This document shows, in pieces, positions 52,989-62,738 of a DNA stretch of 64,000 nucleotides. Numbering within the stretch: the first letter of the stretch is position 1; each line of letters opens with the position of its first letter. The notes beneath the pieces were generated by a model. That model searched no databases, was not told the DNA's origin, and saw nothing but the letters and a program-made list of their open reading frames with translations. Location: the NCBI GenBank assembly GCA_000828835.1, contig AP014633.1, forward strand, positions 3,472,001 through 3,536,000, written 5' to 3'. The stretch comes from Thioploca ingrica (lineage in GTDB: Bacteria; Pseudomonadota; Gammaproteobacteria; Beggiatoales; Beggiatoaceae). The translations under genes and the position numbers were made by a program.

Positions 52989-53535
52989 TATTTACTCACC
53001 AATCTAGTCGAGGAATCAGTTACCCAATATTGATTCAGATAGTTTACCTTGTCAATTATAAAAACTCACGTATTCATTTTTATCCAACCATAAGAAAAAT
53101 TAATTTTTTCTAGAATGATCAATTAACGTATTGATTAAGTTAAATTAAAATAGCGTCACGGCCATTTAAGTTAAGAATTCTCCCCTTGGTTAAAGCAGAG
53201 GTATCTACACCAAAGTAAGAAAAGGATGATAAGTGGAATCACATTTAAAACCTAATCCAAGACTAGCTCAAGACTAGCTACAGCAAGCCAAGATAGGGAC
53301 GCATCAAGCTACTTGACAATTTTATGCTAACGAAAAAACGTGATTAAGTAAATTATTTTTGTCAAAGGGGAAATTTGGATGAACCGTTAAGGGTACATTA
53401 GCGAGGCGCTAGGTCAGGGAGCGTTACGGCTGAGCCTAACGCATCCTATCTGGTTGAAAAAAAAGCAACTGTCTGGTAACTTCGATCACAGTTGCTCTTT
53501 GAGTTATTAGTTAGCTGCTATAAGTAAGTTGCTTA
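52989..53535. other. Gene-free stretch upstream of nuoG
   Basis: 547 bp, AT-rich. It should hold the promoter of the nuoG-N operon (minus), but I saw no clear hexamer pair. CAAGACTAGCT occurs twice near 53258-53280. A fragment of the scattered repeat family (GAGCGTTACGGCTGAGCCTAACGCATCC, about 53420-53448) and the terminator of the first secreted paralog (53464-53496) lie on its right side. Confidence 0.5.
53464..53496 (-). terminator. Terminator of secreted paralog A
   Basis: Read on the minus strand: AGCAACTGT, a 15-base loop containing GATCGAAGT, then ACAGTTGCT, followed directly by a run of eight T. The stem is 9 bp and the position 40 bp after the stop is ideal. Related hairpins with the same AGCAACTG arms follow the other three paralogs. 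Confidence 0.85.
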
Positions 53536-54690
53536 CTAGAAGCAATAATCTTTTGTCATGACTTTGAGAGTATCTACATCCATCATGTGATAGCAAGAAC
53601 CACTTTGAGGCGTGAATGGAGTTGTGAAAGTAACCGGACCATCGCCAAGCTCTACCACAAATAGCTCCCCCACTAACTTCTGGGCGTTTTCCATAATGGC
53701 TACCGCACCTTGGTCGGCAATAACAGTGAAGTTAAGAATGCCATTTTCATATGAATTAATGGTTATTTCACGAACCGGTAGTATGCAGTCGGTATCAGCT
53801 ATGTAAGCAAAATCGACCACATTTATTGGTGTATTGCCTCCAACCGGGGTTGGAAAATCAATGGTCAGCGTTCCATAAAGGTCATGTATCGGTTTACGGT
53901 AGTTGTTAGATAACTTGGGTGCTTCATTGAGTGGAATATTGTTGCCATCTAGCGACGAATTATTCGTTTGCGGATCAGCATCATGAGTGGCAGTATATAC
54001 TGGGTCACTATAGGTTGCCGTGAAAATCGGTGATGGTGCTGTAGGAAGAGTTTGTCTAATAAACTGACCCCTTGCAGACCCCGGGGTATGTTCAGGAGCA
54101 GTAGTTACTGGAGCACGAGGCAGTTTTCCACCAACATCAAAGGCATATACTATTTTCTCCCCTGGATTATCCCCCGACGTGTTTCTTTTTAAAGGTTTGA
54201 ACACAATTTGTTTTATAGATACACCCGTATTAGTAGAGAGTGTCCATTGATGGTTCCAGGTATCATCTTTCTGAGCCAATAACCACCCTGTTCCGGAAGC
54301 ATATCCCTTGGTGCCAGTCCCGGCTGTCCACCACTGTGTCTCTTTAGTCCCATCTCCAAAGGTCACCGTCACCGGAAATTTAGCCATTTCATGTCCATTC
54401 ACAGCGAATGATTCAGGACACATTTTAAGTAGGTGTATTGCGTTGCTACTATCTACAGCAACATTCTTAGGTAAAGCTTGTGCGGGATCAAGGCCAGTAG
54501 GCGAGGCAAGCCCCAAGTCAGGGGCATTTTCCGACATTCCTTTGATTGGCTGAAGATTCATTGTGTCCAGAAAAGCACTGACTTCTGCTGGTGACATTTC
54601 TGGATGTAGGGTTAATTCAGCGAGGGCATAAGTACCTGAAGTACCATATAATAATGCGCCTATTGCCAGCAACAGACTGGTTTTTTTCAT
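53536..54690 (-). CDS. Secreted protein of an undescribed paralogous family, member A
   Basis: 384 residues. Signal peptide MKKTSLLLAIGALLYGTSGTYALA. It then has LHPEMSPAEVSAFLDTM, a Pro-rich linker, and the shared core: MCPESFAVNGHEMAKFPVTV, GTGWLLAQKDDTWNHQWTLS, KIVYAFDVGGKLPRAP, SARGQFIRQ, ATYSDPVY, HDLYGTLTIDFP, ADTDCILPVREITINSYENG, GDGPVTFTTPFTPQSGSCYHMMDVDTL and a terminal YCF. I do not recognise the family. No anchor or sorting motif is seen, so it is periplasmic, outer-membrane associated or secreted. AAGGAG precedes the ATG. Closest to member D by its C-terminus. Confidence 0.85.
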   Translation of the reverse strand: MKKTSLLLAIGALLYGTSGTYALAELTLHPEMSPAEVSAFLDTMNLQPIKGMSENAPDLGLASPTGLDPAQALPKNVAVDSSNAIHLLKMCPESFAVNGHEMAKFPVTVTFGDGTKETQWWTAGTGTKGYASGTGWLLAQKDDTWNHQWTLSTNTGVSIKQIVFKPLKRNTSGDNPGEKIVYAFDVGGKLPRAPVTTAPEHTPGSARGQFIRQTLPTAPSPIFTATYSDPVYTATHDADPQTNNSSLDGNNIPLNEAPKLSNNYRKPIHDLYGTLTIDFPTPVGGNTPINVVDFAYIADTDCILPVREITINSYENGILNFTVIADQGAVAIMENAQKLVGELFVVELGDGPVTFTTPFTPQSGSCYHMMDVDTLKVMTKDYCF

Positions 54691-54766
54691 TATTTTCTCC
54701 TTAATGACTATGATTAATTATCGGGTCAGTCAATACATAGCTTGAAGAAAAAAAGCAAGAATTGGG

Positions 54767-54803
54767 TTGCTCTAGATTGAGCAAATTCCTACCGATTCTT
54801 CTT
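54767..54803 (-). promoter_or_regulatory. Conserved 5' leader hairpin of paralog A
   Basis: Minus strand: AAGAAGAATCGGTAGGAAT followed by TTGCTC-AATCTA-GAGCAA, about 77-113 bp before the start. The same block precedes all four paralogs. The stem here uses C-G where paralog B uses T-A at the same position, a compensatory change. It is followed by a conserved CTATGTATTGA string. Function unknown: leader RNA or operator. Confidence 0.65.
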
Positions 54804-55017
54804 CCCTGAGTTGAAAATGAAATCACATTTCCAACTGGATAGTTAACTACTGGTTGAGGTGGCTTTAGTTGAGCTTACCTCAATATTAGTAAAATAACTA
54901 AAATTAATATACAATAACAAAGTATGATGTACAACTTAAATCTACACTACTCAATTTTTTCTTTTATACTCAATTGAATTCAGTTCAGAATTTTTTTGCT
55001 GAGCAGCAATCAAAACC

Positions 55018-55052
55018 GAGCAACGATTCTCTCAATTTGAGCACCGTTGCTC
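55018..55052 (-). terminator. 3' hairpin of paralog B
   Basis: Arms GAGCAACG and CGTTGCTC (8 bp) around a 19-base loop, 44 bp after the stop. The T run on the minus strand is weak (GGTTTTGATT), so efficient termination is less certain than for A. The arms share GAGCAAC with the hairpins of the other paralogs. Confidence 0.55.
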
Positions 55053-55095
55053 TAGGGTAGAGTTAGTTAGTAATTAATATGGATTTTTTTAGTTG

Positions 55096-56328
55096 TTAGG
55101 GGCAGACCTCATTATTTGCGTTGGTGGACACTCCCAACAGCGGAACTGTATTTTGAGTACCATTATTGGCTATGTTTACCACACTGTAGCAACAACTTTC
55201 GTGAGGAGTCAGTGAAGTGCTAAAACCAACTGCACCATCGATATACGCTACTGCAAATGGACCAGCAACTAAATTAGAACTCGCTCCGCATCTTTCCGCA
55301 ATATAGGCAGACCCGTCTCCAGTTAGAGTAAAGTTCACCATGCCACCCTGATAAGAGTCAAATTTAGCCTCTTTCACTGGTAAGCAATCTGTATCGGCTA
55401 CAAACCTAAAAGAGGGATCTGTTAGTAGCACAGTTCCTTTAATTGCTGGCGCGAAATTGATTTCTAAGGTGCCATAAAGGTCATGTTTAGGTGTACCTCC
55501 GCCTGGAATAGCGGTGTTGCCATCGTTTGGTAAAACACCTGGCGGTGGCGGTAGATGTGCAGGGTCAACGTATACTGGGTCACTATAGATTGCCGTGAAT
55601 TTCACAGTTGCTGGAGACGCTAGAGAAATAAATCGTCCTCTTGCTGCACCTTCGGTATGCTCAAGGGTTGTAATACCACCAGAAACAGGAGCACGAGGCA
55701 ATTTTCCACCGATATCAAAAGCATATACCCTTCCCTTCGGTGGTTTAACATCTAAAGCGTGGATCACAATTTGTTTTATATCTTTAGTGGTAAAGAGTAT
55801 CCATGGGTGATTCGTATACCAGGTGTCATCCCTCTGAGCCAATACCCATCCCTTTCCTAGTGCAAACCCAGTACCTCTAGCTTCACCTCCAGTTGGGCTA
55901 GTTGTTTGCCACCTAGCTGAGCTTGTAGTTCCGTCGGCAAAAGCCACCTCCACGAGGATTCCCTTCATTTCAGCTCCATTCACCGGGAATGAGTTAGGAT
56001 CACACATAGCCGGCTTGTGTACTGCCTCGCTGGTATCAGTAGGATCAAGGGGGCTAGGGGTTGAGCTAGGGGTTGCTGCAACACTAACATTAAGAGGTAA
56101 TTTTTGGGGGGGATCGAGTCCAGCAGGCGAAACATCCCCTGAAACAGGGGCATCTTCTGCTATTTCTGGTACATCTGATGGTGGGATAACAACTTGGTCT
56201 AGAATAGACATGAGTTGTTCTTCTGGCATTCCTGGATAAAGGCTAATTTCTTCTTCAGCAATGGCATAACTACCTGATGCACCATACAATAATGCACCTA
56301 CCGCCAGCAATAGACTGGTTTTTTTCAT
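55096..56328 (-). CDS. Secreted protein of an undescribed paralogous family, member B
   Basis: 410 residues from the ATG at 56328, which has AAGGAG upstream; the frame is open for 28 codons before it, but these lie in the leader. Signal peptide MKKTSLLLAVGALLYGASGSYAIA, then SLYPGMPEEQLMSILDQV, Pro-rich linker and the core blocks: MCDPNSFPVNGAEM, GKGWVLAQRDDTWYTNHPW, RVYAFDIGGKLPRAPV, GAARGRFISLA, HDLYGTLEINF, ADTDCLPVKEAKFDSYQGG. It differs from A and D by an extra Cys (AERCGASS), a double Cys (ESCCYSVVN) and the ending LLGVSTNANNEVCP, shared with C. Confidence 0.85.
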   Translation of the reverse strand: MKKTSLLLAVGALLYGASGSYAIAEEEISLYPGMPEEQLMSILDQVVIPPSDVPEIAEDAPVSGDVSPAGLDPPQKLPLNVSVAATPSSTPSPLDPTDTSEAVHKPAMCDPNSFPVNGAEMKGILVEVAFADGTTSSARWQTTSPTGGEARGTGFALGKGWVLAQRDDTWYTNHPWILFTTKDIKQIVIHALDVKPPKGRVYAFDIGGKLPRAPVSGGITTLEHTEGAARGRFISLASPATVKFTAIYSDPVYVDPAHLPPPPGVLPNDGNTAIPGGGTPKHDLYGTLEINFAPAIKGTVLLTDPSFRFVADTDCLPVKEAKFDSYQGGMVNFTLTGDGSAYIAERCGASSNLVAGPFAVAYIDGAVGFSTSLTPHESCCYSVVNIANNGTQNTVPLLGVSTNANNEVCP

Positions 56329-56420
56329 TACTTTCTCCTTAATTACTATGATTGCTTCACATATGGTTAATACGTTAAGGTCTTTCAATACATAGCCAGA
56401 AAAGAAGAGCAAGAAGTGAT

Positions 56421-56457
56421 TTGCTTGTGATTAAGCAAATTCCTACCGATTCTTCTT
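56421..56457 (-). promoter_or_regulatory. Conserved 5' leader hairpin of paralog B
   Basis: Minus strand: AAGAAGAATCGGTAGGAAT then TTGCTT-AATCAC-AAGCAA, 93-129 bp before the start. Relative to A, one stem pair changed from C-G to T-A, keeping the stem. GGCTATGTATTGAAAGACC follows, shared with C. Confidence 0.65.
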
Positions 56458-56645
56458 CTCTTTCTCTTGGTTGAAAATAAAACGACATTCTCAACCGGAT
56501 AGTTAACTACTTGTTGAGGTTGCTCTGGTCAAGCGCACCGCAATTTTAGTAAGTAAATTAACTACTTTTAGTATATAATACTAAAATCGTTCACACAAAA
56601 AAATTAGAGAGACAATTCTAAATCTAACTTTTTTCTTTGCTACCC

Positions 56646-56680
56646 GAGCAACTGTTTTCTAAATTCGACCGCAGTTGCTC
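56646..56680 (-). terminator. 3' hairpin of paralog C
   Basis: Arms GAGCAACTG and CAGTTGCTC (9 bp) with a 17-base loop that contains GGTCGAATT, as in D. It lies 58 bp after the stop. No clear T run follows on the minus strand, so it may be a processing or stability element as much as a terminator. Confidence 0.55.
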
Positions 56681-56737
56681 TTGAGTAGAGTTAGCTTGCA
56701 ATTAATTGGTTCTTCTGGGTTGCTAGAAACCGAGTAC

Positions 56738-57871
56738 TCATTGCGCGCAGACTTCATTATCCGCGCTGGTGTTGACTCCCAGCAGCTTGACCGTCTCTAA
56801 AGAATCTAAATCCATCAAACTATAGCAACAACCACTTTTAAGTTTAAGTGAGGTACTAATAGTATTCCCATTTTCACCCGTTAACTCAAAAGGACCGGCA
56901 ACAGTACTAACATCCTCGTCGCATCTTTGCATAATAGCGGCTAGTCCATCATTCTCTGCCAGGATCTTCATAACCAACGTGCTCGTTTCCTGATTATAAG
57001 AGATCACTTGACCCTCTCTAATTGGTAAGCAATCGGTATCGGCTCGGAAAGTAAAGAAGGGTGGTAGTTTTATCAGTCCTACAGCCGGGGCGGCAGTGAA
57101 GTTGATTGTTAGAGTACCATACATGTCATGTGGTCCAGGAGGGTTACCATTGATATCAGATGGAGGGGGATAAGTAGTAGTATGATTACCAACTACTACT
57201 GGTCGACTATAAGTTGCCTTGAACCCAACTGGTAGTGATGGAGGTTCTTGAGTAATAGCCCACCCTTTTTGCGAGCCTCCTACAGGTTCGTCACTATGAG
57301 TTGGCCTATGTATTATATCAAAGGCATATTTATGCGCTCCTGGACCTGTCCTTGATAACGGATCAATCTTGATACTAGTTATAGCTATTTTGGTAATCAG
57401 CCACCACTTAGCATCCCAGGTGTCGCCTTTTTCAAATAATAACCACCCCATTCCTTTGGCTATACCGGCGGTGGCTAACACCGGATAAGCAGCTATCATC
57501 GCGGCACTGAATCTTACAAAGTTAACGGTAGCACCTCCATTTACCGTTACCGGGAAATTAGCCATTTGATAACCATTTGGCTGGAACCCACAGAACTCAG
57601 ACATATGTATTATGTTTGAATCATCTACAAAAACATTGGGGGGGATTGCGGCGGCGGTTACATCTCCATCAGACTGGGAATCTCCTTCTTCTTCCTCTGT
57701 AGCTACGGAAACTGTATCAGCGGCTGCTAAAACACCATACTCTTCGAGGACTTTCAGGACGGCTTCATCTGACATATCGGTGGTTATGTCTGTGTCAGCG
57801 AAGACAGAAGGGCTTGAGGCACCATACAACAACATACTGGCTGCCAGCAATAGACTGGTTTTTTTCATCAT
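56738..57871 (-). CDS. Secreted protein of an undescribed paralogous family, member C
   Basis: 377 residues. Two in-frame ATGs begin it after AAGGAGAAA. Signal peptide MKKTSLLLAASMLLYGASSPSVFA, then DITTDMSDEAVLKVLEEYGV, an acidic linker (TEEEEGDSQSDGD), and the core: FCGFQPNGYQMANFPVTV, KGMGWLLFEKGDTWDAKWWLIT, HKYAFDIIHRPTH, ATYSRPVVV, HDMYGTLTINF, RADTDCLPIREGQVISYN. It shares with B the RC (MQRCDEDV), the CC pair and the ending LLGVNTSADNEVCAQ. Confidence 0.85.
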   Translation of the reverse strand: MMKKTSLLLAASMLLYGASSPSVFADTDITTDMSDEAVLKVLEEYGVLAAADTVSVATEEEEGDSQSDGDVTAAAIPPNVFVDDSNIIHMSEFCGFQPNGYQMANFPVTVNGGATVNFVRFSAAMIAAYPVLATAGIAKGMGWLLFEKGDTWDAKWWLITKIAITSIKIDPLSRTGPGAHKYAFDIIHRPTHSDEPVGGSQKGWAITQEPPSLPVGFKATYSRPVVVGNHTTTYPPPSDINGNPPGPHDMYGTLTINFTAAPAVGLIKLPPFFTFRADTDCLPIREGQVISYNQETSTLVMKILAENDGLAAIMQRCDEDVSTVAGPFELTGENGNTISTSLKLKSGCCYSLMDLDSLETVKLLGVNTSADNEVCAQ

Positions 57872-57959
57872 TTTCTCCTTAAATTACTATGATTGCTTCA
57901 CATATGATTAATACGTTAAGGTCTTTCAATACATAGCCAGAAGAAAAAAGCAAGCAGTG

Positions 57960-57998
57960 GTTTACTTTGGATTGAGCAAACTCCTACCGATTCTTCTT
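57960..57998 (-). promoter_or_regulatory. Conserved 5' leader hairpin of paralog C
   Basis: Minus strand: AAGAAGAATCGGTAGGA followed by GTTTGCT-CAATCCAA-AGTAAAC, a 7-bp stem with one G-T pair. The same sequence block and position (about 90-127 bp before the start) as in A and B. Confidence 0.6.
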
Positions 57999-58230
57999 GT
58001 AGTTAACTTTATTTAGAGCGTTTTGGTCAGTTCACTTTAAATAATTGCTAGCTACCATCTCAGTATGGTAAAGGCAATCTGTTTTGTACCACTTAAATAC
58101 GATGGAAGGTAATAATTAAGGGATTAATGGTGATATTAATTATTTTGATTAGCGGCCAATGGAATTAACCTATTGATAATAAATAGTTTTTACTATTAAA
58201 CTTTATGGGACTGATATTAGCGATTTTTAT

Positions 58231-58267
58231 AGAGCAACTGTTATTTCAATTCGATCACAGTTGCTCT
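58231..58267. terminator. 3' hairpin of paralog D
   Basis: Arms AGAGCAACTGT (58231-58241) and ACAGTTGCTCT (58257-58267), an 11-bp perfect stem with a 15-base loop (GATCGAATT on minus). It lies 38 bp after the stop of D. The T run is better on the plus strand (TCTTTTATTTTT), so it may act in both directions. Confidence 0.65.
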
Positions 58268-58304
58268 TTTATTTTTCAGTTAGTTGTTATAAGCGTGCCT
58301 CTTA

Positions 58305-59342
58305 TTAGAAGCAATACTTGTCTGTCATCACAGTGCCGGTGTCTATATCCGTCATAACATAGCAAGAATTGGCTTTAGGAGTGAATTGAGTAGTAAAGGT
58401 ATTTTGACCCTCGCCACGTTCGACTACAAAAGGTCCTTGCACCACCGAGCCGTCTTCTTTTGTAATTGCTACCGCACCTTCGCCAACCACGGTGAAGTTG
58501 AGGGTGGTACCGTCATAGGAATTGAGGAGTACTTCTTGAACTGGCATGCAGTCTGTGTCTGCTTTAAACATCAAGAAGCCACCAAGTGGTGCAGCCCCTG
58601 AAAAACCTGAAGGGAAATTGATTGTCATAACACCATAAAGATCATTTGGCGTTCCTAATACGGGAGTACTATAGACAACATTGGTGTTTGTTGGCCATCC
58701 GGGAGGAACCTTAGTAAAAGGTAATCCATTTGCAGAACCTGGGGTTACTATTGGACCATGAATTATATCGAAAACAGCGTGTTTGTTAGAACCACCTATT
58801 TTATTCCAAGCATCAATTTTGATACTGGATACGACTACGTTTGCATCTGTGATTATCCACCAGTTGTTATTCCAAGTATCGCCCTGTTCAAATAATAGCC
58901 ATCCATCTCCTACAGCCACCCCAGCTTTCCAAGCAGGTGGTCCCACAGCTACCCAGTTTACTGTTTCAGGTGATGAGAGTTGATTAGTAACCGCAGTTAC
59001 AGGAAAAGGACCCATGATGAAACCCATATCCCATCCCGTCACACTGAAACTAGGAGAAGGAGGAGGAGAACATGGCCCAGTTGTATGCACTGGATTGGAA
59101 TTATCTACTTTAACATAGGGTGGTAACGCTTGGGATTGATCTACAGTTGATGGGGTAGCCGCATCTTCTGCTATATCTGTTGTAGAGTCGGGTGGTGGCG
59201 CAAGAGAAATGCCATGTTCCTCGAGAACCGCCTTTATTTCATCCACTGACATGCCTGGATGTATTTTAGTTTCTGCATAAACATTAGGGGCGCCATACAA
59301 GAATATGGCTGCAGCAAACAACATAATAATTTTTTTCATCAC
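58305..59342 (-). CDS. Secreted protein of an undescribed paralogous family, member D
   Basis: 345 residues, the shortest member. Signal peptide MKKIIMLFAAAIFLYGAPNVYA. It continues with KIHPGMSVDEIKAVLEEHGI, a Pro-rich linker and the core: FSVTGWDMGFIMGPFPVTA, GDGWLLFEQGDTWNNNWWIIT, KHAVFDIIHGP, GSANGLPFTKVP, NDLYGVMTINFP, KADTDCMPVQEVLLNSYDG, LNFTVVGEGAVAI, GPFVVERGEGQNTFTTQFTP and CYVMTDIDTGTV with terminal YCF. It has A-type Cys pattern but C-type core (WWIIT, FDIIH), so it bridges the subgroups. A good RBS precedes the two ATGs. Confidence 0.85.
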   Translation of the reverse strand: MMKKIIMLFAAAIFLYGAPNVYAETKIHPGMSVDEIKAVLEEHGISLAPPPDSTTDIAEDAATPSTVDQSQALPPYVKVDNSNPVHTTGPCSPPPSPSFSVTGWDMGFIMGPFPVTAVTNQLSSPETVNWVAVGPPAWKAGVAVGDGWLLFEQGDTWNNNWWIITDANVVVSSIKIDAWNKIGGSNKHAVFDIIHGPIVTPGSANGLPFTKVPPGWPTNTNVVYSTPVLGTPNDLYGVMTINFPSGFSGAAPLGGFLMFKADTDCMPVQEVLLNSYDGTTLNFTVVGEGAVAITKEDGSVVQGPFVVERGEGQNTFTTQFTPKANSCYVMTDIDTGTVMTDKYCF

Positions 59343-59415
59343 TTTCTCCTTTTACTATGAAAGGCTTCATTGCCAAGCAAGTCATAGTTAGGAACAAAGA
59401 AGAAGTAAGAATATC

Positions 59416-59446
59416 TCTGCTTTTTAGCAAATCCCTACCTTTTCTT
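59416..59446 (-). promoter_or_regulatory. Conserved 5' leader hairpin of paralog D
   Basis: Minus strand: AAGAAAAGGTAGGGAT then TTTGCT-AAAA-AGCAGA, a 6-bp stem with one U-G pair. GGTAGGRATTTGCT is the part common to A, B and D; C has GGTAGGAGTTTGCT. It is the most diverged of the four. Confidence 0.55.
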
Positions 59447-59687
59447 TATAATAACACTCAACCATTTGGTCTTGGTTAAGTGGCCTTTTGTATACAAAAA
59501 CAGTATACAATTATTATAATATCAATAAATATATTTTAATTTAGGTTTTAATAGATAAACGGTACTAAATAACTTATATACGGTAAATTTTACAAAAGCT
59601 CATTAATAACGAGCCTTATGCAATAAGTTGATGGCAGTGGAACCCAGTGGATTTAAAAGAAGGTAGAGCAGCCGTGCTTAACTAGGG

Positions 59688-59831
59688 TTATAAATTTTTA
59701 ACATCAATAGAATCACTGTAAACTTCTATCCCTAATTTGTCGGCAACGACTTGTACTTTGGAATCAACCATTGGAGAAAAGAAGTTTCCGTTTGAATGCC
59801 CCACCGTGCACCGAGAGCACCGATACTCCAT
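59688..59831 (-). pseudogene. Possible gene remnant, 47 codons
   Basis: A minus-strand frame from an ATG at 59831 to TAA at 59688 encodes a protein-like string with CSRC, GHSNGNFFSPMVDSK, VQVVADKLGIEVYSDSI. It has two Cys in a CxxC and a plausible alpha/beta ending, but no RBS and no known family. It may be the tail of a lost gene. Weak evidence. Confidence 0.25.
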
Positions 59832-59864
59832 AATCGCAACATCGGTGACTCTATCAAAATCAAT

Positions 59865-60677
59865 TTAATTGGTTTTAGGTGACGCATCCATCGCATGTCG
59901 TAATTCTCGTAAAAATGCCGGTACCACCGCTAAAATTTGCTCTGGCGGCGTGTCGGCAATCCGTTGCACTAAGGCACTACCAACCACGACCGCATCGCTG
60001 ATGGCTGCAATTTGAGCAGCAGTTGAAGCATCTTTAATACCAAAACCAACGCCCAGCGGTAAATGAGTATAGCGGCGAATTTCGGTTATTTTGCTAGCCA
60101 CTTCGGCGACATTGAGATGACTACTTCCGGTGACGCCTTTGAGAGAAACATAATACAAGTAACCATGAGCCTGAGTACAAATCCGTTTAATCCGCTCGGG
60201 TGTCGTGGTGGGTGCCAACAGAAAGATAGGCGCTAAATTGTGAGAACGTAATAAAATACCCAGTTCACCCATTTCTTCCGGTGGTAAATCAACCGTTAAT
60301 ACGCCATCGACTTCGACGGACTCTGCGGTTTCTACAAAAGTTTTATAACCCATTATTTCAATAGGATTAAGATAGCCCATCAGAACCACTGGCGTCGTTT
60401 GATCTTGTTCGCGGAAAATTTTCACCATGTCTAACACATCTCGTAACCGCGTACCAGCCGCTAAGGCTCGTTCACTCGCTTTTTGAATAACGGGACCATC
60501 CGCCATTGGGTCAGAAAAGGGAATACCTAATTCGATGATATCAGCACCGGCGGAGACTAAAGCGTGCATCAAAGGGACTGTTAAAGTGGGCGTGGGATCA
60601 CCCGCCGTGATGTAGGGAATAAGTGCAGCCCGTCGTTGCTCGCGGAGTTGATTGAAACAAAGTGTTAACCGATTCAT
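59865..60677 (-). CDS. trpA: Tryptophan synthase alpha subunit
   Basis: 270 residues. [41 protein letters not shown] (catalytic Glu and Asp), [23 protein letters not shown] and [13 protein letters not shown] are diagnostic. It cleaves indole-glycerol phosphate to indole, which is channelled to TrpB. The ATG overlaps the stop of the upstream trpF-trpB gene (ATGA), so it is translationally coupled. Confidence 0.97.
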
Positions 60678-62539
60678 AGTGAAATACCTTCCAATGTCGC
60701 TACCGTGTGAATGTCTTTATCACCTCGTCCCGAGAGATTGACGATGATAATTTTGTCTTTACTTAATGTCGGTGCTATTTTTTTGCAATAAGCCAAGGCA
60801 TGACTAGACTCGAGGGCGGGTATAATGCCTTCTAACTTGGTTAAGTCGTGAAAAGCGGCGAGCGCTTCCTGATCAGTGATAGCGACATACTGAACCCGCC
60901 CACTATCTTTTAACCAGGCATGTTCTGGTCCCACACCCGGATAATCTAACCCAGCAGAAATAGAATGTGTTTCAATAATTTGCCCATTATCATCGGTCAT
61001 TAAATAAGTTCGATTGCCATGCAGTACCCCCGGTTTACCTGCACATAAGGGAGCAGCATGATGACCGGTGGCGATGCCTTCGCCAGCGGCTTCAACGCCA
61101 TAAATGACAATATTTTTATCTTCTAAAAACGGATAAAATAGACCGATGGCATTAGAACCACCACCCACACAGGCAATGAGTACATCCGGTAACCGACCTG
61201 CCAATACTTTAATTTGCTGGCGAGTTTCTCGTCCAATAACCGATTGAAAGTGGCGAACCATCACCGGGTAGGGATGTGGTCCAGCAACGGTACCGATAAT
61301 GTAAAAGGTATCGTCTACATGAGTTACCCAATCGCGCATCGCTTCATTGAGGGCATCTTTTAAAGTTTGCGAACCGGATTCAACGGCTCGCACTTCGGCA
61401 CCGAGTAAGCGCATTCGATAAACATTGATGGCTTGGCGTTTGATATCTTTGGCGCCCATGTAGACGACACATTTAAAGCCAAAGCGTGCGGCAACCGTGG
61501 CAGTCGCAACGCCATGTTGACCGGCACCGGTTTCCGCGATGATCCGGGTTTTACCCATCCGTTTAGCGAGTAAAGCTTGTCCGACGGTATTATTGATTTT
61601 ATGCGCCCCAGTGTGATTTAAATCTTCGCGTTTGAGGTAAATTTGTGCGCCACCTAATTGTTCCGACCAGCGAGCAGCATGATATAAGGGAGAAGGTCTA
61701 CCCACAAAGTGATGTAAATCATTATTTAATTCAGCTAAAAAAGCGGAATCTTGCAAATGATGTTCGTAGGCTTGGCGTAATTCTTCCAGCGGTTGCATCA
61801 AAGTTTCTGCTACAAAGCAACCCCCGTAAGGGCCGAAATGACCGTGTTCATCGGGTAAGCTATGTGATATATCTTTCGTCATTAAATAGGTAATGGACAT
61901 GGAGACACCTTTCATGAATGCAGTCATTTTGTCTGCGTCTTTAATCCCTTTAGCTGATTCAACGCCACCGCTGACATCAACTGCATAAGGACGTAAAGTC
62001 GCAATCGCTTGGCTTACATTGTCAGGGGTTAAGCCACCGGCAATGATAAATGGTTTGGAAATGTGAGTTGGGATTCGTCGCCAATCAAATGCGACCCCGG
62101 TACCGCCTTGGAGACCGGGTACATAACTATCTAATAATAGAGCGCTAGCTTGAGTATAACGTTGTGCCTCTAGTGGGATATCCAGATCCGGACGCATGCG
62201 TAATGCTTTAATGTAGGGTTTACCGAACGTACTACAGTACTCTGGGGTTTCCTCACCGTGAAATTGCAAGCTATCGAGTGATACTTGAGACAAAATATGG
62301 CTTACCCACTGTGGTTTGGCATTAACAAATAAACCGACCACGGTAACAAAGGGAGGTAAATCTCGAACAATCGCTTGAGCTTGTTCCACCGTGATTGCAC
62401 GAGGACTTTTTTCATAAAATATTAAGCCAATGGCATCAACTCCCAGTTGCGCAGCAACCAAGGCATCTTGAGGACGAGTTATACCACAAATTTTAACGCG
62501 AGTACGTGGTATGAATGAAGTTTGATGGGTGTTAAACAT
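60674..62539 (-). CDS. trpFB: Phosphoribosylanthranilate isomerase fused to tryptophan synthase beta (TrpF-TrpB)
   Basis: 621 residues from the ATG at 62539 (a TTG nine codons earlier is in frame). TrpF part (about 12-215): [13 protein letters not shown] with the catalytic Cys, [22 protein letters not shown] with the catalytic Asp, [17 protein letters not shown]. TrpB part (about 225-621): [35 protein letters not shown] with the PLP lysine, [26 protein letters not shown]. No stop lies between them. An internal ATG at 61900 has AAAGGTG upstream, so separate TrpB could also be made. It is followed by trpA with a 4-bp overlap. TrpF-TrpB fusions exist in some gammaproteobacteria. Confidence 0.94.
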
Positions 62540-62738
62540 GAGGAAATTAAATTTTAAGGTTGACAAAGCCTGGTAATCGTTTTTTAGTCAAAGGTTATTT
62601 ATACCTACCTAAATAATTATCTTTTTGACCATTTTAGGAAAAATTTATTAATGTGCAAGCTTTATTTTGGGGTATTCAATCCGTTTTTGCCAATGAAGAT
62701 CGACCGAAGATTGTCAGCCTATGTTTGCTCCTATGACA

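Follow-up and report, generated by a model that had tools for sequence, protein, structure and literature searches.

Introduction

Proteins carrying a PEP-CTERM tail are associated with exopolysaccharide loci according to Haft 2006 (PMC1569441), and they have been tied to floc formation (PMC9850573). In proteobacteria their genes are described as often sharing a sigma-54 motif, at a mean distance of 71 nt upstream of the start (PMC1569441). The present analysis concerns an array of four co-oriented genes (A-D, minus strand, 53536-59342) in a window of 64,000 nucleotides (nt) of the genome of Thioploca ingrica, a sulfur bacterium that forms sheaths, to which window all coordinates refer unless stated otherwise, and the family of putative exported proteins to which these genes belong. 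Judged by sequence profiles, the family combines a core related to the ectodomain of PEP-CTERM proteins with C-terminal modules (C-modules) that were exchanged between its members, and each of its genes is preceded by a conserved leader.

Compared with PEP-CTERM/VPLPA-CTERM exosortase substrates (TIGR02595/PF07589, TIGR03370), the Thioploca family likewise has a signal peptide and the homologous core ectodomain, and like PEP-CTERM substrates it occurs in many copies per genome, apparently as single-gene units that have an upstream element in common. It differs from them in carrying a cysteine-bearing C-module instead of the PEP-CTERM tail, in the lack of a PF09721 match in the genome and in an upstream element that is not a canonical sigma-54 site. 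A literature search that did not reach the paper on the genome and proteome of T. ingrica found no description of a Thioploca sheath protein or of this protein family. The source sequence is a complete single-contig genome of 4,810,005 bases, with a GC content of 40.9% in the window; the T. ingrica genome is described as finished, in one contig, with 4.8 Mb and 41.2% GC (PMC5728499, PMC4914600).

Gene array and distribution of the family

Gene A (53536..54690) encodes 384 amino acids (aa), arranged as signal peptide, acidic linker, core and C-module of the YCF type. Gene B (55096..56328) encodes 410 aa from its ATG, or 438 aa from an in-frame TTG at 56412, and has a divergent C-module with CC/NNEVC motifs. 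The C-module of gene C (56738..57871, 377 aa) is of the CC/NNEVC type and that of gene D (58305..59342, 345 aa from GTG, with an alternative ATG at 59339) of the YCF type. The array is located between nuo genes and trpA (neighbors named by eye).

The original prediction, made from the letters of the window, had described four exported paralogs, and these are indeed present on the minus strand, with signal peptides recognized by eye and identities to A of 48% (B), 39% (C) and 43% (D). Most of the sequence blocks that it listed occur in all four proteins in relaxed form, namely W(L/V)L....DTW, FD, YSxPV, D(L/M)YGxxxIxF, ADTDC, CY and a C-terminal Cys. Others had been defined too strictly: exact HPxMSxxExxxxL is limited to A and D, D has VFD in place of AFD, ARG is restricted to A and B, and exact DLYGTLTINF is found in none of the four. 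The statement that no known domain is recognizable was borne out, as neither Pfam nor NCBIfam gave a significant family for A-D, and Pfam searches with 17 family members gave only stray matches, each to one member (best E 0.0013). There was also no match on plasmid records (tblastn with A) or in the PDB by sequence profile, and none of five pattern matches of the core profile A3 on viral contigs is a relative.

In the T. ingrica genome ten family members were found at six loci, comprising A-D, the tandem pair E and F, and the single genes G, H, I and J. A sister Thioploca metagenome-assembled genome has five, with sK, sM and sN in tandem and, in addition, sO and sP. The open frames are full-length in 15/15 genes and the start is in register in 14/15; in sN (L033, about 10726) the conserved start codon and the open frame are out of register by one base, the A-run being one shorter, either by error or by a real frameshift. 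Matches were obtained in 4 of the 143 relatives searched, the own genome included, so that the conservation in Beggiatoa-type genomes that was to be checked is not general: besides the two Thioploca genomes, only G002 and G035 matched, each through a single distant homolog (E 7e-20 and 2e-21, 458-459 aa), with C-termini unlike the Thioploca ones in the alignment. The C-module profile had no match in G002 (G035 was outside that search), and the covariance model of the leader had none in G002 or G035. The family appears to be restricted to Thioploca, as judged from two Thioploca genomes.

Core domain and relationship to PEP-CTERM proteins

The core comprises about 180-220 aa and ends at ADTDC; in A it is located at 53773..54423 and is of the PEP-CTERM-ectodomain type, with counterparts at 55375..56007 (B), 57020..57595 (C) and 58539..59075 (D), all on the minus strand. 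The core profile A3 consists of 17 rows. When it was searched against 369 genomes of the class, the sole genome found besides the own one was G168 (E 3.3e-7), and the matching 220-aa protein ends in a PEP-CTERM tail (TIGR02595 20.5 bits, cut-off 16; PF07589 25.7, cut-off 20.7). A relative in G412 is 58% identical to this protein, with a PEP-CTERM tail read by eye. Alignment of a two-row profile of these proteins with A3 by hhalign gave a probability of 98.8% over 142 columns. The profile was then extended by the two relatives (A5) and searched against 398 genomes of the phylum, of which six matched, including the own one. One of these matches (G421/L060, E 0.0018, with internal stops) was discarded as chance, leaving four further usable ones (L056-L059, E 6.5e-13 to 6.5e-7). 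L056 and L057 have PEP-CTERM tails, that of L057 being above the TIGR02595 cut-off and below the Pfam one, L059 has a VPLPA-CTERM tail and L058 a Hint_2 domain. Six other sequences (L050-L055) match the query just in its C-terminal part, the PEP-CTERM tail included, and were left out of the set of core relatives; of these, L050, L051 and L053 were inspected in translation. On plasmid records, tblastn with the core of the PEP-CTERM relative L039 gave no match.

The position of the tail relative to the core is similar in these proteins. In the PEP-CTERM relatives L039, L049 and L057 at most about 4 residues separate it from the DTD block; in L056 and L059 the spacer is longer, about 10-20 residues. 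The same DTD block is where the Thioploca proteins enter the C-module. The L058 protein (L058 1423-2577), from another class of the phylum, has the same core followed by a different C-terminal module at about the same boundary, a Hint domain standing where the Thioploca proteins have the probably Ig-like Cys module.

These profile comparisons show homology between the core and the ectodomain of PEP-CTERM/VPLPA-CTERM surface proteins. This is a relation by ancestry; it implies neither membership among exosortase substrates nor a described function. The search thus places the core among PEP-CTERM-, VPLPA-CTERM- and Hint-tailed proteins, and since it yields ancestry and not a described function, the proteins have not been assigned to a well-described family. 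PF07589 matched 0/17 family members (Pfam, E ≤ 0.1), and TIGR02595 is absent from the NCBIfam matches of A-D and likewise from those of L036. The exosortase model PF09721 had 0 matches in the T. ingrica genome, so that the apparent absence of an exosortase is based on a single Pfam model.

Exchange and fold of the C-modules

The C-modules are located at 53539..53784 (A), 55099..55383 (B), 56741..57028 (C) and 58308..58547 (D), all on the minus strand. The two C-terminal types originally distinguished hold by motif for A-D, and a third is found among the other family members of the genus. The YCF type is found in A, D, E, F, J, sO and sN, the CC/NNEVC type in C, I, sK and sM, and the third type in G, H and sP; B belongs to the CC/NNEVC type by motif only, its position in the C-module tree being unsettled. 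In that tree sP and sN form long branches.

Pairs of genes that are closely similar in the core carry C-modules of different type. At the DNA level A and sM share 735/897 nt (81.9%) up to a junction at ADTDC and 117/246 nt (47.6%) beyond it, and the C-module of sM is 72-75% identical at the aa level to those of C and I. Nucleotide identity falls in the same way from 73.3% to 51.1% for D/sK and from 75.0% to 50.0% for B/H, whereas the unswapped same-type pair J/sO has 79.0% before and 89.8% after the junction. In the approximately unbiased (AU) test, the groupings A+sM, D+sK and B+H were rejected with the C-module data (p 3e-55, 4.5e-7 and 7.7e-4), and the three C-type groups were rejected with the core data (p 1.1e-5, 6.8e-4 and 3e-91). 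Two points weigh against this evidence. The same-type pair E/sN also falls, from 78.4 to 60.8%, so fast divergence of the C-module alone accounts for part of such drops, and the AU p values are optimistic because the groups were picked after inspection of the identity table. Taken together, the identities and tree tests show that C-modules were exchanged by recombination just past ADTDC and that core and C-module have no single shared history. The expansion by tandem duplication under selection that had originally been proposed is therefore too simple in view of six loci and swapped C-modules, although selection itself is plausible. In 45 genomes the C-module profile matched only these family genes, apart from one match at own-genome position 22836 (E 0.083) that was dropped as chance.

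AlphaFold2 models were built from five sequences. The C-module block reaches a predicted local distance difference test score (pLDDT) of 58-89, starting at residue 311 in A and 271 in D. Compared with PDB folds, it resembles immunoglobulin (Ig)-like beta sandwiches at a generic level, both in A (VIA Z up to 7.0, 78 aligned residues, root mean square deviation 2.7) and in D (Z 6.7, 78 aligned, deviation 2.6). Against confidence in these models stand the weak overall scores, with pLDDT 56.7 and predicted template modeling score (pTM) 0.53 for A and pLDDT 61.4 and pTM 0.56 for D. On the basis of these models the C-module is probably Ig-like. The PDB fold search gave rows over the C-module only, the core being barely covered by it, and these rows neither establish nor rule out a family; a fold search of BFVD gave nothing at E ≤ 0.001.

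Divergence and rearrangement

The family diverges fast relative to neighboring genes. Between the two genomes, seven orthologs encoded next to family members or within the trp operon have identities of 86.6-98.1% and one small protein has 64%, while four clear family pairs are 57-72% identical at the aa level and the best match of sP is 47%. Recombining families of paralogous surface proteins likewise exchange modules between dispersed copies, with a conserved junction as the site of exchange. Unlike in such families, no expression site or silent cassettes were noticed, although no systematic search for them was made. Module swapping, the fast divergence and the several dispersed copies, which could serve as recombination partners, would suit a surface-antigen-like family in which tail swapping is selected for evading phages, predators or grazers and not for building a structure. 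We consider this explanation somewhat unlikely, as the surface-sorting tails of the core relatives fit matrix roles too.

The sK-sM-sN array of the sister is flanked by genes that in T. ingrica border I and E/F, two separate loci, which places family copies at rearrangement breakpoints; the 19 kb around trpA in the sister contain no family gene. Loci at synteny breaks, together with a leader and signal-peptide codons common to the members, could also be those of a recombining repeat family that is upheld by gene conversion and rearrangement and whose members differ little in function. The full-length frames and in-register starts described above and the maintenance of even Cys counts across module types make such an origin distinctly improbable.

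The neighbors of E/F and sN include a GGDEF protein and those of I and sK a PKD-domain protein, which fits the theme of a matrix and proves nothing. Some further features were observed near family genes. Beyond the array, trpF and trpB are apparently fused in one 630-aa frame (60674-62566, by eye). A tRNA gene is located directly downstream of E (L028 7337-7409; Rfam), and a tRNA-like start is also seen by eye 3′ of sN. About 7 kb from J, a HEARO RNA (RF02033, 99.6 bits) lies beside a 466-aa open reading frame, which we take to resemble IscB (L032 2789-3022 and 1353-2753, respectively; genome about 4176352-4178021).

Cysteine pattern

The number of Cys residues is even in each of the 15 proteins, with four in ten proteins, six in four and eight in one. 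C91 and C302 (A numbering) are present in 15/15 and both are absent from the PEP-CTERM relatives L039 and L049; two further Cys are found in the C-module in 15/15, and the CC/NNEVC type adds two. Neither CxxC nor CxxCH occurs in the Cys contexts of the 15 proteins. Even counts and the pattern of positions favor disulfides over heme or metal, which leaves plausible one part of the original suggestion, that the Cys residues indicate disulfides or metal or heme sites. Its other part, periplasmic heme- or metal-binding proteins, could appeal to the conservation of the Cys residues, but in the absence of CxxC, with even counts throughout and with no redox family in Pfam, it is highly improbable. 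A disulfide C91-C302 probably ties the core, as suggested by co-occurrence, and a second one, C366-C383, is predicted in the C-module of A. L036 and L037 lack C91 and yet have CCC after ADAD, which runs counter to a strict coupling; the coupling of C91 and C302 is therefore not extended to them.

Conserved leader

Overlooked so far were a conserved leader before every gene and a common inverted repeat at the 3′ ends. The leader is located at 54688..54805 in A, where it ends with the ATG, at 56326..56459 in B and 57866..58000 in C (long forms), and at 59337..59451 in D, all on the minus strand. It is carried by 15/15 genes, with a length of 112-135 nt including the start codon, and the alignment has 141 columns with a mean column identity of 70%. 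Among the ten own copies the mean pairwise nt identity is 72% in the leader and 74% in the signal-peptide codons, compared with 53% in the core, 56% in the C-module, 45% far upstream and 35% in a shuffled-leader control, so that a non-coding stretch exceeds the protein core in conservation. The covariance model R1, with 150 candidates scored per genome, found 10/10 genes in the own genome and 5/5 in the sister, all hits being at family genes, and nothing in seven other genomes of the Beggiatoaceae family; a leader-like match in an eighth (G010, E 0.335) was at chance level and was dropped. In a scan of both Thioploca genomes for the exact pattern, the zero-mismatch matches were the 15 leaders and no other sites, and one-mismatch matches (9 and 13) were not commoner than controls with at most one mismatch (15 and 13). 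The leader is thus linked exclusively to family genes in the two genomes. Rfam searches gave three sub-gathering rows in 53000-60000 (E ≤ 5), none above gathering and all taken as chance, among them mir-606 (E 0.52) overlapping the leader of D; at gathering, the loci L028, L030, L031 and L032 contain tRNA and HEARO RNA and no leader match.

Translational riboswitches and RNA thermometers sequester the Shine-Dalgarno sequence (SD). Like them, the Thioploca leader has a predicted anti-SD tract and an anti-anti-SD element; unlike the known classes, it is without an Rfam match, is confined to one gene family and has weak covariation. RNAalifold pairs GUAGGAA with UUCUUGC, UUUGCU with AGCAA, ACUAUG with CAUAGU, and a pyrimidine tract with the SD. 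A rival pairing, of the pyrimidine tract with a 5′ GAAGAA/AAAGAA element, appears in single folds of several leaders. When the SD is held open, this rival pairing forms in 15/15 leaders (mean 0.60-0.85), and when the 5′ end is held open, the SD is paired in 15/15 (0.72-0.99), the two states lying at most 2.6 kcal/mol apart. The median SD pairing is 0.85 in the leaders versus 0.60 in 37 control genes (p 7e-4).

A number of results count against an RNA switch. SD pairing is low in sM (0.24), E (0.52) and sN (0.59) in this comparison and in A (0.33) among the single folds. Covariation is weak, with double changes in 2/24 pairs and mostly one-sided wobble changes, paired cells amount to 96.9% versus 96.0% in shuffles, and z-scores of single-leader folding range from -0.75 to -3.66; the leaders are related and hence not independent in these folding and covariation counts. 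Among 600 shuffles with real ends, 10.5% meet both thresholds when the 5′ end is allowed any partner, and the on/off gap averages 2.3 kcal/mol in shuffles versus 1.5 in leaders; as gaps are small in shuffles too, the energy balance alone says little.

Against the switch also stands a promoter reading, in which the 5′ part (GGTAGG..TTTGC) would act as DNA and lie outside the RNA, perhaps as a degenerate sigma-54 -24/-12 site that came from PEP-CTERM genes. Co-regulation would then be transcriptional, as it is for classical PEP-CTERM genes. The motif shared by PEP-CTERM genes is a precedent for it, the Thioploca element starting 94-120 nt before the start; GG-N9-GC, a non-canonical spacing, occurs in 14/15 leaders, and a sigma-70 scan of the array was at chance level (19 sites vs 14.9 in shuffles). 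The N10 spacing of sigma-54 sites is near-strict, however, and canonical GG-N10-GC is found at the element in 2/15 only, H being without GC. In addition, conservation runs on in the 3′ direction through the UUCUUGC partner, the pyrimidine tract, ACTATG/CATAGT and the SD. The promoter is, in our view, a real possibility that falls somewhat short of even standing. 

Two features near the leader were noted in passing. A palindrome, CACTTAACC..GGTTGAGTG, is located just upstream of the leader of D (59455-59482) and is a possible operator; comparable palindromes precede I, J, sK and sO. ATG-NNN-stop occurs by eye in the ACTATG arm of most leaders (ATG TAT TGA in A), possibly by chance; a mini upstream open reading frame at this position is unproven, as no SD was seen before the ATG.

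3′ ends and transcription units

A 35-nt inverted repeat, AGAGCAAC....GTTGCT, is present 3′ of each of A-D (53464..53498, 55019..55053, 56647..56681 and 58233..58267, minus strand). Only that of A runs directly into a T run, and none of the four was flagged by the terminator scan. Similar repeats follow most other members, with a different one in sP (alignment). From leader and 3′ repeat together, each gene looks like a separate transcription unit.

Discussion

The explanation proposed here, which we hold to be evenly balanced between right and wrong, is that the family consists of secreted, unanchored proteins of the extracellular matrix (sheath or trail) that go back to PEP-CTERM ancestors, have diversified by exchanging their tails and are regulated together via the leader. 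The proteins, laid out as signal peptide, disordered acidic linker, beta-rich core and C-module with its own Cys pair or pairs, would be exported by Sec via the signal peptide. As the C-module replaces the exosortase sorting tail, they would be released and not anchored by exosortase, and may pass beyond the outer membrane, possibly through a type II system, of which the sister encodes GspG close to sO. They would fold with disulfides and then be incorporated into the extracellular polymer; the matrix role is suggested by analogy with PEP-CTERM proteins. C-module exchange and fast divergence would result in a changing set of outer-coat proteins. In the leader, the pyrimidine tract would pair with the SD (off) or with the 5′ GAAGAA/AAAGAA element (on), and this alternative pairing in a common leader suggests coordinated translational control. 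In its most specific form, a genus-specific sheath kit of former PEP-CTERM proteins with swappable disulfide tails that are jointly switched by a new class of leader RNA, the proposal is speculative and unlikely to hold in every part.

The core domain merits a Pfam entry. For Thioploca, the family provides concrete candidates for sheath proteins, and the leader marks the whole set. Moreover, it suggests a route by which a surface protein anchored through a sorting tail may become a secreted protein with exchangeable tails.

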